This document shows, one piece after another, positions 26,299 through 47,563 of a stretch of DNA of 64,000 nucleotides (within the stretch, counting starts at the first letter, position 1; each line of letters opens with the position of its first letter). The DNA is from Gloeobacter kilaueensis JS1 (lineage in GTDB: Bacteria; Cyanobacteriota; Cyanobacteriia; Gloeobacterales; Gloeobacteraceae). Made by a program: the position numbers and the translations under genes. The stretch covers positions 1,984,001-2,048,000 of the forward strand of contig NC_022600.1 in assembly GCF_000484535.1 (NCBI RefSeq). The letters are read 5' to 3'. The notes below the pieces were generated by a model, which ran no database searches, was not told where the DNA came from, and saw only the letters and a list, made by a program, of their open reading frames with translations.

Positions 26299-26316
26299 TG
26301 AGCTAAAATGCGCTCA
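26299..26316. promoter_or_regulatory. Palindrome around CTAAAATG upstream of the IscA-type gene
   Basis: TGAGC-TAAAATGC-GCTCA: arms of 5 bp flank a TAAAAT that also resembles a -10 hexamer, 24 bp before the IscA-type start. The CTAAAATG core is shared with the two palindromes upstream of the suf operon. Confidence 0.45.
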
Positions 26317-26339: not shown

Positions 26340-26693
26340 ATGATCAACCTGACCGATGCTGCCCTGCGCGAAGTCAGGCGTCTGCGGCAAAAAAGCGGCG
26401 ATCCGCGCAAGTTTCTACGCCTCGGGGTGGCCAACGCCGGTTGCTCCGGGATGTCCTACACGATGAAGCTCGACAGCGCAGCGCAGCCAGACGATCAAGT
26501 TCACGAGTACGGCGATCTCAAAGTCGCGATCGACGCAGCGAGCCTCGCCTACCTCGACGAGTTGACCCTCGATTGGTCGAGTGACCTGATGGGCGGCGGT
26601 TTTCGCTTTCACAACCCCAAGGCCACCCACACCTGCGGCTGTGGTTCGTCTTTTTCGACCAATCCTGAGGCTGCCGCCGGGGCAGTTCACTGA
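26340..26693 (+). CDS. IscA/SufA-type iron-sulfur carrier protein
   Basis: 117 residues. The HesB/IscA/SufA domain is complete, with the three conserved Cys: GVANAGCSGMSYTMKL (Cys near 35) and the C-terminal THTCGCGSSF pair. The LMGGGFRFHNPKATHTCGCGSSF ending is typical of the A-type carrier found in cyanobacteria and plastids. It would receive and deliver Fe-S clusters or iron downstream of the SufBCD scaffold. It stands alone, far from the suf operon, but has a related promoter palindrome. Confidence 0.92.
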   Translation: MINLTDAALREVRRLRQKSGDPRKFLRLGVANAGCSGMSYTMKLDSAAQPDDQVHEYGDLKVAIDAASLAYLDELTLDWSSDLMGGGFRFHNPKATHTCGCGSSFSTNPEAAAGAVH

Positions 26694-40273: not shown

Positions 40274-40371
40274 CTGAGAGCAGCCGGTTTTCCGAATCAA
40301 AAGGTAGGTATTGCCGACCGGGCAGAGTCCCCGGTGTATCCTGAAAATTGAGGTATCGAAATGTTGCGACC

Positions 40372-41202
40372 ATGACGAGCTGCCTGATCGTGCGCCGCTC
40401 CCGTTTCAGCGCCGCTCATCGCTACTGGCTGGAGGAACTGAGCGCCGAGGAGAACCGGCGGCGCTTCGGTGCCGCCGCCAACATCCACGGCCACAACTAC
40501 ACGATATTGGTCTCGATGAACGGGCCGGTGGACCGCTTCGGCATGGTGCTCAATTTGAGCGAAGTCAAGCAGATTATCCGCCGCGAGGTCTCAGGCCAGC
40601 TCGACAGCCAGCTGCTAAACGAGACCTGGGAGGAGTTTGTCCGGACACTGCCCACCACCGAGCACATGGCGCGGGTCATCTTCGAGCGCCTGCGTCCCCA
40701 TCTGCCGGTGGTGCGGGTGCAGCTATTTGAATCGGAAGATCTCTGGGCCGAGTATCAAGGAGAAGCCATGCAAGCGTATCTGACGATCGCCGATCACTTT
40801 GCGGCTGCCCACCGGCTTGCCCTCGACGAACTGTCGCTTGAAGAAAACACCGAAATCTACGGACTGTGCGCCCGCACCCACGGCCACGGCCACAACTACC
40901 ACGTCGAGATCACCGTCAAGGGCGAGGTGGACGAGCGCACCGGGATGCTGGTGGACCTGGTGGCATTGCAGCGCCTGCTTAAAGACAAGGTGCTTTTGCC
41001 CTTCGATCACACCTTCTTGAACAAGGACGTGCCCTACTTTGCCCAGGTGGTGCCGACGGCTGAAAATATCGCCCTGCACATTCGCGACCTGCTCGAAGAA
41101 CCCGTGCGCGCCCTCGGAGCCCGCCTGCACAAAGTCCGCCTCATCGAAAGCCCCAACAACTCCGTCGAGGTCTACACCGAGAGCTTTGCGCCGATCGCCT
41201 GA
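40372..41202 (+). CDS. Tandem-fused 6-carboxytetrahydropterin synthase (QueD/PTPS-like)
   Basis: 276 residues from MTSCLIVRRSRFSAAHRYW, made of two PTPS domains. The C-terminal half (about 130-276) is complete: zinc His in ADHFAAAHRLAL and HGHGHNYHVEI, catalytic Cys in YGLCARTHGHGH, Asp-His in LPFDHTFLN and Glu in RLIESPNNSVEVY. The N-terminal half keeps the zinc His residues (SAAHRYW, IHGHNY) but has Ala where the Cys should be (FGAAANIHGHNY) and LDSQLLN instead of the Asp-His pair, so it is probably structural. PTPS/QueD enzymes make 6-carboxytetrahydropterin for queuosine or related pterins. A single-chain heterodimer-like arrangement is inferred. Confidence 0.85.
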   Translation: MTSCLIVRRSRFSAAHRYWLEELSAEENRRRFGAAANIHGHNYTILVSMNGPVDRFGMVLNLSEVKQIIRREVSGQLDSQLLNETWEEFVRTLPTTEHMARVIFERLRPHLPVVRVQLFESEDLWAEYQGEAMQAYLTIADHFAAAHRLALDELSLEENTEIYGLCARTHGHGHNYHVEITVKGEVDERTGMLVDLVALQRLLKDKVLLPFDHTFLNKDVPYFAQVVPTAENIALHIRDLLEEPVRALGARLHKVRLIESPNNSVEVYTESFAPIA

Positions 41203-41204
41203 CA

Positions 41205-41333
41205 TTACAGGCGGTACTGCAGGCGGCGGATGGCCAGGCCCAGCAGGCTCAAAGGCAGGGCAAGGGCAAGCAGCGCCGCGTAATAGATAAAAAAGTAATT
41301 GCCGAGGTTCGCCGTCAGATTCAGGTGGCTCAT
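41205..41333 (-). CDS. 42-residue single-span membrane protein
   Basis: A frame missed by length cut-offs: ATG at 41333 with a strong GGGAGG site 8 nt upstream, encoding MSHLNLTANLGNYFFIYYAA, then LLALALPLSLLGLAIRRLQYRL, stop at 41205-41207. One transmembrane helix with a short basic C-terminal tail (RRLQYR). The size and layout fit the small subunits of cyanobacterial photosynthetic or NDH-1 complexes (NdhP, PetL and Psb types), but I cannot match a named one. It ends 2 bp from the convergent PTPS gene. Confidence 0.6.
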   Translation of the reverse strand: MSHLNLTANLGNYFFIYYAALLALALPLSLLGLAIRRLQYRL

Positions 41334-41358
41334 CGCTTTTTCCTCCCGTTCGATACTG

Positions 41359-41376
41359 GCAGCCTAAAATGGCTGC
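41359..41376. promoter_or_regulatory. Palindrome GCAGCC-TAAAAT-GGCTGC upstream of the suf operon
   Basis: A perfect 6-bp inverted repeat around TAAAAT lies between the small membrane gene and the Rrf2 regulator, 105 bp before the regulator start. First of two CTAAAATG-centred palindromes here. Confidence 0.45.
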
Positions 41377-41430
41377 GCTCGATAGATGGCGGCTGTTAGA
41401 CCAGTTTTTGCACCGGCACAGGCGGCGGGC

Positions 41431-41460
41431 TTGCCCAAAATAGGACTAAAATGGTCTTAT
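41431..41460 (+). promoter_or_regulatory. Putative suf promoter with overlapping Rrf2-type operator
   Basis: An imperfect palindrome (arms ATAGGAC at 41440-41446 and GTCTTAT at 41454-41460 around TAAAATG, 6 of 7 arm pairs matching) resembles type-1 IscR/Rrf2 sites (GACTA-N-TAGTC-like centre). TTGCCC (41431-41436) and TCTTAT (41455-41460) give a plausible sigma70 promoter with an 18-nt spacer. The operator would cover it, as expected for autorepression by the gene starting at 41481. Confidence 0.55.
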
Positions 41461-41480
41461 ATGAAGGCAGGTAACAAGCC

Positions 41481-41954
41481 ATGCTCCGCATGACCCGGCA
41501 ATCGGACTACGGCATCGTGCTCATCAGCTATCTGGCCGCTCGCCCTGAGCGCAGTTTTGGGGCGGCGGAGCTGGCGGCCCAGACCGCGTTGCCGGTGCCG
41601 ATCGTGCGCAAGATCTTGAAGCTTCTGGCTAAAGGCGCGCTTCTGGTCTCCCATCGGGGCATCAAGGGCGGCTACAGCCTTGCCCGGCCCGCGAGTGCAA
41701 TCTCGGTGGCCGATATTCTCACAGCCCTCGAAGGGCCGATTGCCCTGACCGAGTGCATCGAAGAAGCCCCCGGCGGCTGCAGCCACGAGGCGCTCTGCCC
41801 TTTGCGGCCCAAGTGGCAGCGCATCAACGCCGTCGTCCACCACGCCCTCTCTTCGATCAACCTCAGCCAGCTCATCGCCCCCTGGCCCCACGAGTACCTG
41901 AACCTGTCCAGGCCCACTGCCGCCCTCAGCACTGTCCAGTCTCCCCTACGCTAA
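41481..41954 (+). CDS. Rrf2-family regulator of the suf operon
   Basis: 157 residues. The winged helix-turn-helix of the Rrf2 family occupies 1-75 (MTRQSDYGIVLISYLAARPERSFGAAELAAQTALPVPIVRKILKLLAKGALLVSHRGIKGGYSLARPASAISVADILTALEG). A three-Cys cluster ECIEEAPGGCSHEALCPLRPKW would hold an Fe-S cluster, as in IscR and SUF-type Rrf2 regulators. It lies 18 bp upstream of sufB and is probably cotranscribed, so it likely senses Fe-S status and autorepresses the operon. Most cyanobacteria use a DeoR-type SufR instead. Confidence 0.9.
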   Translation: MLRMTRQSDYGIVLISYLAARPERSFGAAELAAQTALPVPIVRKILKLLAKGALLVSHRGIKGGYSLARPASAISVADILTALEGPIALTECIEEAPGGCSHEALCPLRPKWQRINAVVHHALSSINLSQLIAPWPHEYLNLSRPTAALSTVQSPLR

Positions 41955-41972: not shown

Positions 41973-43421
<1,449 letters not shown>

Positions 43422-43448: not shown

Positions 43449-44216
<768 letters not shown>

Positions 44217-44225
44217 AGGAATCGC

Positions 44226-45542
44226 ATGTCGCAGCTGACGATCGAAAAGAACACGTTTTTGACCGACTTTGCCGACTTTGCCGCTGGCCGGACCGACGAG
44301 CCGCCCTTCGTCGCCTCGCTGCGCAGCGAGGCGCTCTCGCAATTTGCCACCGCCGGTCTGCCGCACCGCCGCCTCGAAAAGTGGCGGCAACTGGATCTCT
44401 CGGGCTTTCGCAGTCACGAATTTGCCCTCATCGAAAAGCCGCCTGCGGTACTGGCCCATGCCATTGCGCCGCTGCGCCTCGCAGGAGCGCAGGAGCTGGT
44501 GTTTGTCGATGGCCACTTCGTACCCGAACTGTCCGAGGCCGGGAGTGTGGCGGGGGTGCAGGCGGGCAGTCTGGCGGTTGCGGCGCGCCAACAGCCGACC
44601 CCCCTAGGCCGCGACGTCGATTTGAGCGAGCCCTTCGCCGCCCTCAACACGATCTACTGGCAGGACGGCGCGTTTGTTCAGTTGCAGCCCGGCGCAGTTG
44701 CCCAGCGGCCCCTGCACCTGTTGTGCGTAGCCACCGGCGGCGAGCAACCGACGGCGAGCTACCCGCGCCACCTGATCGCCCTCGGGGCCAACAGCGAGGC
44801 GACGGTGATCGAGACCTATACGAGCCTGGGTGCGGGCGTTCACTTTAGCTGCCCCCTGAGCGAGGTCGGGCTGGCCGCCAACGCCCGGCTCAACCACCAC
44901 CGCTTCGTCCGGCAGAACCCGGCTGCCTACCACCTGGCCACCAGCCACCTGCACCTCGGGCGCGACAGCCGCATCAACGCCCTCGCCGCCTGCCTGGGGG
45001 GCAGTCTGACCCGCCACGATCTCCACGTCGATCTGGCCGCCCCCGGCAGCGAGGCCAACCTGCAGGGCCTTTATCTGGCCGCCGACACCCAGCAGGTCGA
45101 TAATCACCTCTGGGTCCGCCACAGCGCTCCCCATACCAGGAGCCGCCAGAGCTACCGGGGCATCCTGGCAGGCAGGGCGCAGGCGGTCTTTAACGGCAAC
45201 ATCCACGTCGAAGCCGCCGCCGCCAAAACCGATGCCCGCCAGAGCAACCGCAACCTGCTCCTCTCGGATACGGCCCTCGTCCACACCAATCCCCAGCTTG
45301 AGATCTACGCCGGCGACGTGCGCTGCACCCACGGTTCGACCGTCGGCCAGCTCGACGAGGAAGCGCTCTTTTATCTGCGCTCGCGCGGTCTGGACGCAGC
45401 CTCGGCCAGAAACCTGCTCACCTACGCCTTTGCCAGCGACCTCATCGATGCGGTCGAGCCCGCGATTCTGCGCCCACAACTGGAGCAGGCGCTGTTCGAC
45501 TGGCTCAGCTTAAACGTCGGCTTTCGCGGAGAAACACGATGA
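44226..45542 (+). CDS. sufD: Fe-S cluster assembly protein SufD
   Basis: 438 residues. C-terminal SufBD domain with SRQSYRGILAGRAQAVFNGNIHVEAAAAKTDARQSNRNLLLSD and HGSTVGQLDEEALFYLRSRGLDAASARNLLTYAFASDLI. Pairs with SufB in the SufBC2D complex. The stop overlaps the sufS start (ATGA). Confidence 0.95.
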   Translation: MSQLTIEKNTFLTDFADFAAGRTDEPPFVASLRSEALSQFATAGLPHRRLEKWRQLDLSGFRSHEFALIEKPPAVLAHAIAPLRLAGAQELVFVDGHFVPELSEAGSVAGVQAGSLAVAARQQPTPLGRDVDLSEPFAALNTIYWQDGAFVQLQPGAVAQRPLHLLCVATGGEQPTASYPRHLIALGANSEATVIETYTSLGAGVHFSCPLSEVGLAANARLNHHRFVRQNPAAYHLATSHLHLGRDSRINALAACLGGSLTRHDLHVDLAAPGSEANLQGLYLAADTQQVDNHLWVRHSAPHTRSRQSYRGILAGRAQAVFNGNIHVEAAAAKTDARQSNRNLLLSDTALVHTNPQLEIYAGDVRCTHGSTVGQLDEEALFYLRSRGLDAASARNLLTYAFASDLIDAVEPAILRPQLEQALFDWLSLNVGFRGETR

Positions 45543-46795
45543 CGCTCACCGCTTCGACCTCCACCACCCGCCTCACCCCCGCCGCCGTTGCCCAACTGCG
45601 CGCGGACTTTCCGATTCTGGGCGAGTCCGTCCACGGCAAACCGCTCGTCTACCTCGATAACGCCGCTTCGACCCAGAAGCCCCAGGCGGTGATCGACGCG
45701 ATTAGCCGGCTCTACACGAGCTACTACGCCAATATCCATAGAGGCGTCCACCAACTCAGCCAGCTTTCGACGGCGGCCCACGACGAGGCGCGCCGCAAGG
45801 TGCAGCGCTTTATCAACGCCAGAAGCGACAAAGAAATCATCTTCGTGCGCGGCTGCACCGAGGCGATCAATCTGGTCGCCCAGACCTTTGGTCGGCAAAA
45901 TATCGGCCCCGGCGACGAAATACTGATCACAGCGATGGAGCACCACTCCAACATCGTCCCCTGGCAGATGCTCTGCCAGGAAAAGGGGGCCGTCCTCAAA
46001 GTCGCGCCGATTAGCGATCAAGGCGAACTGCTCGTAGACGCATACGAAAAGCTCCTGGGCGAGCGCACGAAGCTGGTCGCCCTCGTGCATCTTTCTAATG
46101 CTCTGGGCACGATCAACCCGGTGCGGCAACTCGTCGAGCTGGCCCACGCCCGATCGATCCCGGTGTTGCTCGACGGAGCCCAGGCCGTCTCCCACATTCC
46201 CGTCGATGTCCAGGCGCTCGACTGCGACTTTTATACTTTCTCGGGCCACAAGCTCTACGGCCCCACCGGCATCGGTGTGCTCTACGGCAAAGAAGAACGG
46301 CTGGAGGCGATGCCCCCCTGGCAGGGCGGCGGCGATATGATCCGCTCCGTCAGCTTTGAGAAGACGACCTTCAGTGGCATCCCTTTTAAGTTCGAGGCGG
46401 GCACCCCGGATATCTGCGGCGCGATTGCCCTGGGCGTCGCCATCGATTACGTGCAGCAGGTGGGCCTCGCGGCGATTGCCGACTATGAGGCGGAGCTTTT
46501 AAGCTACGCCACCGAGCAGATCCAGGCGGTGCCGGGGGTGCGCTTGATTGGCACCGCCCGCGAGAAGGCGAGTGTGCTCTCTTTTGTGATCGATGGCGTC
46601 CATCCCCACGACATCGGCACGATCCTCGATCAACAGGGCGTGGCGATCCGGGCGGGCCACCACTGTGCCCAGCCGGTGATGCAGCGCCTCAAGCTTCCCG
46701 CCACCGCCCGCGCCTCCTTTGCCTTCTACAACACCCGCGCCGAGGTGGACGCCCTGGTGGCGGCGGTCTACACAGTTCAGGAGATGTTTGGTTGA
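45539..46795 (+). CDS. sufS: Cysteine desulfurase SufS
   Basis: 418 residues, group II desulfurase. YLDNAASTQKPQAVIDAI, the PLP lysine in FYTFSGHKLYGPTGIGVLYG, and the catalytic Cys in IRAGHHCAQPVMQRL are present. It releases sulfur from cysteine as persulfide and hands it to SufU, encoded one base downstream. Confidence 0.97.
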   Translation: MTLTASTSTTRLTPAAVAQLRADFPILGESVHGKPLVYLDNAASTQKPQAVIDAISRLYTSYYANIHRGVHQLSQLSTAAHDEARRKVQRFINARSDKEIIFVRGCTEAINLVAQTFGRQNIGPGDEILITAMEHHSNIVPWQMLCQEKGAVLKVAPISDQGELLVDAYEKLLGERTKLVALVHLSNALGTINPVRQLVELAHARSIPVLLDGAQAVSHIPVDVQALDCDFYTFSGHKLYGPTGIGVLYGKEERLEAMPPWQGGGDMIRSVSFEKTTFSGIPFKFEAGTPDICGAIALGVAIDYVQQVGLAAIADYEAELLSYATEQIQAVPGVRLIGTAREKASVLSFVIDGVHPHDIGTILDQQGVAIRAGHHCAQPVMQRLKLPATARASFAFYNTRAEVDALVAAVYTVQEMFG

Positions 46796-46796
46796 T

Positions 46797-47249
46797 ATGT
46801 CAGAACTGCGCGAACTGTACCAGGAAGTAATCCTCGATCACTACAGGCGGCCCCGCAACTACGGCGAGTTGCCGGAGGCGAACCGCGAGGCGGAGGGTCA
46901 CAACCCCCTGTGCGGCGATCAGGTGACGATCTATCTGCAGCTTCAAGATGGCCTGATTCAGGACATCCACTTCGAGGGAGCCGGTTGTGCGATCTCGACA
47001 GCGAGTGCTTCGCTGATGACCGAGGCGCTCAAGGGCAAGAGCGTCGCCCAGGCGGCCCACCTTTTTGAGAACTTTCACCAACTGGTAACCAGCGACGATG
47101 CAGAGGCGCTTCCTGCCCCCGATCTGGGCAAACTGGCGGTGCTGGCCGGCGTGCGCGAATTTCCGATGCGCGTCAAGTGTGCCACCCTCGCCTGGCATAC
47201 CCTCAACGCTGCCCTCAAAAATACCGGCGAGCTGGTGAGCACGGAGTAA
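46797..47249 (+). CDS. sufU: Sulfur acceptor SufU
   Basis: 150 residues from MSELRELYQEVILDHYRRPRNYGELPEAN. The three Cys and the Asp that bind zinc in SufU are present: NPLCGDQVTIY, GAGCAISTASASLM and RVKCATLAWHTL. The insertion around residue 95-110 distinguishes it from IscU. In Gram-positive bacteria SufU is the zinc-dependent sulfurtransferase of SufS; the same role is inferred here. Confidence 0.93.
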   Translation: MSELRELYQEVILDHYRRPRNYGELPEANREAEGHNPLCGDQVTIYLQLQDGLIQDIHFEGAGCAISTASASLMTEALKGKSVAQAAHLFENFHQLVTSDDAEALPAPDLGKLAVLAGVREFPMRVKCATLAWHTLNAALKNTGELVSTE

Positions 47250-47251
47250 TC

Positions 47252-47563
47252 ATGGAAAAAGACACCGAACTCAAGGAGCAGGTGATCGGGGCACTCAAGA
47301 GCGTCTACGATCCCGAAATTCCCGTCAACATCTACGATCTGGGCCTGGTCTACGACGTGGGCGTCGTCGCCGGTCACGTCGCCGTCCAGATGACTCTCAC
47401 CACACCGATGTGTCCGGTCGCAGGCTCGCTGCCCGGCGAAGTCGAGACGAAACTGCAGGAGTTGCCGGGAGTGGTCTCAGCCCAGGTCGAACTGGTCTGG
47501 GAGCCCGCCTGGACGATGGACAGGATGCCTGAGGAAGCGAAGCTGCAGCTGGGACTGTTTTGA
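47252..47563 (+). CDS. sufT: SufT/MIP18-family (DUF59) Fe-S maturation protein
   Basis: 103 residues: LKEQVIGALKSVYDPEIPVNIYDLGLVYDVGV, the conserved Cys in TLTTPMCPVAGSLPGEVE, and VELVWEPAWTMDRMPEEAKLQLGLF. The MIP18/DUF59 domain assists late Fe-S delivery. Last gene of the suf operon, 2 bp after sufU. Confidence 0.9.
   Translation: MEKDTELKEQVIGALKSVYDPEIPVNIYDLGLVYDVGVVAGHVAVQMTLTTPMCPVAGSLPGEVETKLQELPGVVSAQVELVWEPAWTMDRMPEEAKLQLGLF

Follow-up and report, generated by a model that had tools for sequence, protein, structure and literature searches.

The type 1 sites of E. coli IscR are dyads with an inner GAC and GTC placed 7 nt apart. The described system closest to ours is that of RisR in M. 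xanthus, which the original report presents as a repressor of suf and isc in its holo-Fe-S form (PMC9973013). Its footprint, T(t/g)GAC-N7-GTCC(t/a), was found before both suf and isc, where it overlaps −10 or −35 hexamers, and mutation of one RisR half-site raised reporter expression 3-fold for isc and 4-fold for suf, which was less than the effect of deleting risR (same source). RisR was placed in group IS6 of the Rrf2 family, a group that includes Cyanobacteria (Sourice et al. 2023, PMC9973013), and, according to that report, was the first regulator of this group to be studied. The operator of SufR in other cyanobacteria is CAAC-N6-GTTG, as cited in PMC4755962; SufR represses the sufBCDS operon, as is predicted here for the Rrf2 protein of Gloeobacter, but belongs to another protein family and has another operator. 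To the extent of our literature searches, neither a Gloeobacter Rrf2 protein nor its operator has been described in print.

The window, i.e., the whole stretch of DNA that was analysed, comprises 64,000 nt (G000:C1:1984001-2048000) of a genome of 4,724,791 bases, designated G000, which together with G001 to G008 forms our set of nine Gloeobacterales genomes. Genes of the window were named from NCBIfam matches at curated cut-offs (Table 1). They include an operon with the order rrf2-sufBCDSU followed by a SUF-associated gene (TIGR02945). An orthologous rrf2-sufB pair was present in 7 of the 9 Gloeobacterales, and 78 of the best 80 of 409 related loci had a sufB match 3' of rrf2 in the same orientation. 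By family, the Rrf2 protein is a regulator of Fe-S assembly, passing the curated cut-off of TIGR02944, "SUF system Fe-S cluster assembly regulator" (suf_reg_Xantho), with no tested difference from that model. After a limited literature search, we know of no published operator for this model. The window protein shares the family fold of E. coli IscR, and the site described below shares its dyad geometry, but the protein fell below the cut-offs of the IscR models TIGR02010 (57.2 of 207.55 bits) and NF008110 (34.8 of 275 bits), and positions 40/43/44 of its recognition helix are P/R/K versus S/E/Q in E. coli IscR (PMC9973013). The likeness to RisR, which was judged by its published description, extends to an Rrf2 protein with three C-terminal cysteines, linkage to suf, GAC-N7-GTC in suf and isc promoters, and AT-rich flanking arms. 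However, the three cysteines are found at 92/102/108 in RisR (PMC9973013) and at 92/100/106 in the window protein, where they are invariant in 7 of 7 Gloeobacterales orthologues; in addition, the isc part of G000 consists of iscS-iscA, with no iscU found between the two genes, and the half-sites vary, with GTAC in other genera.

Table 1 Genes and sites of the window discussed in the text, with their profile matches or sequence features. Positions are those of the window.
Feature	Position	Strand	Evidence
Site 3, −10-like TAAAAT, not in the operator class	26299..26316	+	TGAGC-TAAAATGC-GCTCA
IscA/HesB-type A-carrier gene	26340..26693	+	TIGR00049 119.3 bits (cut-off 58.8); PF01521
Site 1, not in the operator class	41359..41376	.	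palindrome GCAGCC-TAAAAT-GGCTGC
Site 2, predicted operator of a RisR-type Rrf2 (G000)	41437..41463	+	AAAATAGGAC-TAAAATG-GTCTTATATG; matrix rank 1; kept in 7/7 orthologous loci
TAAAAT, possible −10 hexamer within the 7-nt operator spacer	41447..41452	+	position and likeness only
rrf2, Fe-S assembly regulator, putative repressor	41481..41954	+	TIGR02944 137.3 bits (cut-off 110.65); PF02082 111 bits; Cys92, Cys100, Cys106
sufB	41973..43421	+	NF008773 923.8 bits (cut-off 717)
sufC	43449..44216	+	TIGR01978 363.2 bits (cut-off 212.8)
sufD	44226..45542	+	TIGR01981 269.3 bits (cut-off 222)
sufS	45539..46795	+	TIGR01979 600.6 bits (cut-off 475.1)
sufU	46791..47249	+	TIGR01994 166.4 bits (cut-off 92.5)
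SUF-associated protein	47249..47563, start codon uncertain	+	TIGR02945 145.2 bits (cut-off 143.4)

Two further reading frames lie on the other side of the rrf2 upstream region. A 42-aa ORF (41205-41333, minus strand), divergent from the suf operon, has one likely membrane helix and ends in RRLQYRL; a Pfam search with it returned no family over the cut-off. At the same place, locus L003 has a small ORF resembling it, with RRLQY at its end, and L002 has a shorter relative. With two stretches matching the 6-pyruvoyl tetrahydropterin synthase/QueD family, the 284-aa ORF at 40348-41202 seems to be a fusion of two such domains.

Site 2 had been noticed over 41440-41460, where it reads ATAGGAC-TAAAATG-GTCTTAT, and had been compared with IscR-type sites; this resemblance was confirmed, the site having the geometry GAC-N7-GTC. 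Its perfect arms, of only 3 bp, are the shortest among the three sites of the first-pass annotation. With a symmetric matrix of 27 columns built from 70 sites outside Gloeobacterales, site 2 ranked first of 63,974 window positions, with 31.3 bits against 6.0 for the next, and it was again first when the arms only were scored (23.4 bits, the highest other score being 8.0). The dyad was found 16-17 nt 5' of the ATG in all seven Gloeobacterales with an orthologue of rrf2. Besides the site of the window, the operator reads GAAATAGCAC-taaaatg-GTCTTGTATG in G001-G003, GAATAAGTAC-taaaatg-GTACTGATTC in G005, AGAATAGTAC-caaatta-GTACTGTTTC in G007, and GATACAGTAC-taaaaag-GTACGGTTTG in G006. Across these genomes the two arms changed as a pair, from GGAC/GGTC to GTAC/GTAC. 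In the three other Gloeobacter genomes the left arm, AATAGCAC, is less symmetric, and the arms scored 15.1 bits.

The same class of site was found in other organisms. Our scan of a genome collection for relatives was restricted to the best 80 of 409 loci, from which three Gloeobacterales loci (L088, L091, and L101) were set aside, leaving 77. Among these, RKAC-N7-GTMY occurred in the 160 nt 5' of the gene in 70 loci and in none of the 77 in-gene control stretches of equal length; the remaining 7 had no such site within the 160 nt. The core letters of this expression were chosen after inspecting the sites and, because it was written after the first list, its eight core positions cannot count as independent evidence, unlike the outer arms and a second set drawn from Myxococcota. 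In the outer arms, A prevailed among the 70 sites, with 93% at −12 and 85% at −11. Within the half-sites, the base at −6 matched on both sides in 59 of the 70 (G|G in 45, T|T in 14) and differed in 11. The second set comprised 29 of 36 Myxococcota loci passing TIGR02944, two of which were unparsable; the pattern was present in 26 of the 27 readable loci versus 1 of 27 control stretches. From these observations we regard site 2, with high confidence, as the operator through which a RisR-type Rrf2 repressor, encoded by the first gene of the suf operon, would control its own synthesis; this regulator would probably also repress iscS-iscA.

In 15 of the 70 other loci the operator spacer is filled by TANAAT. 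These loci (L133, L142-L144, L146, L148-L150, L152, L153, L155, L159, and L161-L163) are gammaproteobacterial, mostly of the Methylophaga type, with TATAAT as the hexamer listed, so that a −10-like hexamer is enclosed as at site 2. An association was also seen between residue 43 of the protein and position −7 of the suf operators, A being found there with Arg43 in 14 of 16 cases and with other residues in 0 of 51, once 10 of the 70 sites with low symmetry were left out. This association is weak, because Arg43 was found in two lineages only (Gloeobacter and Methylophaga-type proteins) and because the isc sites of G000-G003 depart from the pairing by keeping G on both sides.

A second target was recognized before isc, where loci were scored after a pattern match near iscU in G008. 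In G000, the site at G000:C1:3627553-3627579, before iscS-iscA and 1.6 Mb from site 2, reads GAAATAGAAC-cgctccg-GTCCTATTTT, with AAC instead of GAC as the core of its left half, and scored 22.5 bits; IscS and an A-carrier could be named at this locus. Sites before iscS or iscU scored 14.8 bits in G001, 8.1 bits each and at the same position in G002 and G003, 13.6 bits in G004, 6.5 bits in G007, and 25.1 bits in G008, while G005 and G006 had no isc site at that place. The isc sites present in 7 of the 9 Gloeobacterales are thus four strong and three weak ones, and the weak scores (8.1, 8.1, and 6.5 bits) are of the order of the highest other arms score in the window, each being the best of only 220 nt. 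These results suggest that isc is probably a second target of the repressor encoded by rrf2.

A wide regulon, on the other hand, found no support in pattern searches of the nine Gloeobacterales genomes. For the pattern common to suf and isc sites, which gives zero-mismatch matches by construction, these two sites were the only places in G000 with at most one mismatch, and another three had two mismatches. ANARSAC-N7-GTSYTNT was found at one place in G000 (control, 1), while the other eight genomes had 2-4 places each (controls, 1-5), among which are those at suf in G001-G003 and at isc in G008. A GTAC-type pattern had 0-3 places per genome, with controls of 0 except for 2 in G005; four of its places beyond suf (two in G004, one in G006, and one in G007) were compared with the ORF listings and lay near no evident Fe-S gene, and two other places are in G007 and G005. 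The core pattern GACTAAAATGGTC, searched genome-wide with 3 mismatches, was discarded as uninformative (533 matches versus 1069 in the control).

The first-pass annotation had described three TAAAAT-centred sites with inverted arms, all of which were found in place (Table 1), and had proposed for them a common Rrf2 operator. Site 1 lies in the stretch that separates the divergent 42-aa ORF from rrf2, at 104 nt from the start of the latter, and site 3 ends 23 nt before the IscA-type gene. As bare palindromes the two are unremarkable, because such dyads are common in the window: with spacers of 4-8 nt, there are 131 dyads with perfect 6-bp arms and 522 with 5-bp arms. The best matrix scores at sites 1 and 3 were about −25 bits (ranks 1960 and 1902), in-register scoring of the arms only gave −41.3 and −35.0, respectively, and the AC-N7-GT core was missing at both. 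At site 3, the constant element in 8 of 8 orthologues, its own included, was TAAAAT, TACAAT, TAGAAT, or TATACT (G006 had a paralogue only); the flanks of these orthologues were not palindromic by eye, the arms were not kept, and no matrix score above 0.1 bits was found within 200 nt upstream. In view of matrix scores, the missing core, and non-conservation, we exclude sites 1 and 3 from the operator class, and site 3 is most simply read as a −10 box. The proposal of a common operator stands in part: it holds for site 2, kept in all orthologous loci and matched across relatives, and for the site before isc, and fails for sites 1 and 3. With isc in the place of these two, more than one Fe-S operon does seem to share an Rrf2 operator. 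The restriction to Fe-S genes that had also been remarked upon was found to be a statement about the window only, because CTAAAATG occurs 3 times in the window (0.78 expected; 5 of 100 shuffles reach 3), while the genome as a whole has 30 copies (11 + 19; control, 86), 27 of them outside the window. As the motif itself, CTAAAATG was rejected, only site 2 among the 30 genome places fitting the matrix.

It had also been considered that the shared part might simply be a −10 box; in the full form of this alternative, the three sites share nothing but the hexamer TAAAAT and their arms are due to chance. This describes site 3 well, where the hexamer is kept in all orthologues and the arms are not, it is compatible with site 1, and TAAAAT is present in the spacer of site 2 as well, in a window where palindromes of this size are common. 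At site 2 both readings are open to the same six letters, which belong to the 7-nt spacer of the operator and are possibly also a −10 box inside it; a consensus scan found neither a −35 partner for this hexamer nor a complete sigma-70 promoter. Beyond the genus, however, the arms of site 2 are conserved and stay paired, while the spacer becomes CAAATTA in G007 or TAAAAAG in G006 and TAAAAT is missing from it. In G007 a separate TATAAT lies further upstream, so what is shared, at least there, is the dyad rather than a −10 box. Since the arms alone also place site 2 first in the window, we consider it very improbable that only the hexamer is common to all three sites. Site 1, whose perfect 6-bp arms stand between two divergent genes, might instead be a second, independent control element (hairpin or dyad) belonging to the suf leader or to the 42-aa ORF, but this appears unlikely: it was absent from the 1500 nt upstream in three other Gloeobacter genomes, the window holds 26 perfect 6-6-6 dyads, site 1 included, and no promoter- or terminator-like match was found in 41190-41500.

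It may also be asked whether the Rrf2 protein encoded next to site 2 is what binds there, or whether another regulator does, e.g., another Rrf2 protein. Further Rrf2-like matches exist at G000:C1:1225915 and 2911281, and G004 and G008 possess an isc site without an orthologue of the window protein. Neither sufB nor an orthologous rrf2 was found in the assemblies of these two genomes (95% and 93% complete), and their best Rrf2 proteins, with 34% and 32% identity, scored 82.2 and 87.0 bits with TIGR02944, below the cut-off. However, the operator precedes TIGR02944-type genes across phyla (70 of the 77 loci retained from the best 80 of 409 relatives, and 26 of 27 in Myxococcota), which points to the product of that gene, and we hold the involvement of a different regulator at site 2 to be highly unlikely. 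The preferred reading is thus that site 2 is the operator of the repressor encoded next to it.

The isc regions also differ in their content. An intact iscU was found there in G004, G008, and G007, and a fragment in G001 and G002, while the region yielded no iscU in G000, G003, G005, and G006; the loci compared were L222, L225, and L226 (intact) versus L218-L221, L223, and L224. The presence of an intact iscU in G004 and G008 argues for a real absence of suf from these genomes rather than an assembly gap. Among the six SUF-bearing genomes with iscU fragmentary or not found, the isc operator is kept in four. According to PMC10631705, which draws on earlier work, the SUF system of Gloeobacter was replaced by a laterally acquired one. 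In our comparison, SufB of Gloeobacterales reached up to 86% with SufB of Acidobacteriota versus at most 76.6% with 23 SufB sequences fetched from other cyanobacteria; a C-terminal SufB fragment of 286 residues in G017 reached 80%. A quick SufB tree separated Gloeobacterales from other cyanobacteria, with an AU p of 0.66 and the constrained tree being the better one, and a careful tree separated them through starred branches, with an AU p of 0.09, both sampled with a bias because the outside sequences were chosen for having an rrf2 gene. Our own data lean towards a lateral origin of suf in Gloeobacterales, and the trees would be compatible with a cyanobacterial clade. One may imagine, though we are inclined to doubt it, that the regulator arrived with a foreign SUF operon and also came to command ISC in this early-branching cyanobacterial order, that the ISC scaffold then wasted away, and that the isc operator of G004 and G008 is now read by another Rrf2 protein; residue 43 may, in this scenario, help to set the half-site.

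By analogy with RisR, we infer cluster binding, the sense of regulation, and promoter occlusion, as well as binding and repression at site 2. When clusters are plentiful, the regulator would carry an Fe-S cluster on its three cysteines, and the holo dimer would bind AATAGGAC and its partner half-site across the 7-nt spacer. As the putative −10 hexamer TAAAAT lies within this spacer, binding would cover the promoter and keep rrf2-sufBCDSU down. Upon loss of the clusters, through iron shortage or oxidants, the apo form would leave the DNA and the operon would be induced. The iscS-iscA genes would probably be repressed by the same regulator through the operator found before them.

SufR (TIGR02702, SufR_cyano) was over its cut-off in none of the nine Gloeobacterales, with weak sub-cut-off matches in G000 and G006. 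In a search of 50 other cyanobacteria it passed the cut-off in 47, and the three misses are the three genomes of one family (f4). The RisR-like operator at site 2 is very probably an element of a known kind, newly placed in Gloeobacterales and with a second target at isc. What is gained is a defined candidate operator, a matrix that works across several phyla, and a short list of targets, suf and isc. Beyond what PMC10631705 describes, the suf operon of Gloeobacter would thereby have a regulator and an operator of the type that accompanies suf in Acidobacteriota, among others. In a cyanobacterial order with no SufR over the cut-off, Fe-S homeostasis in Gloeobacter thus becomes directly testable.
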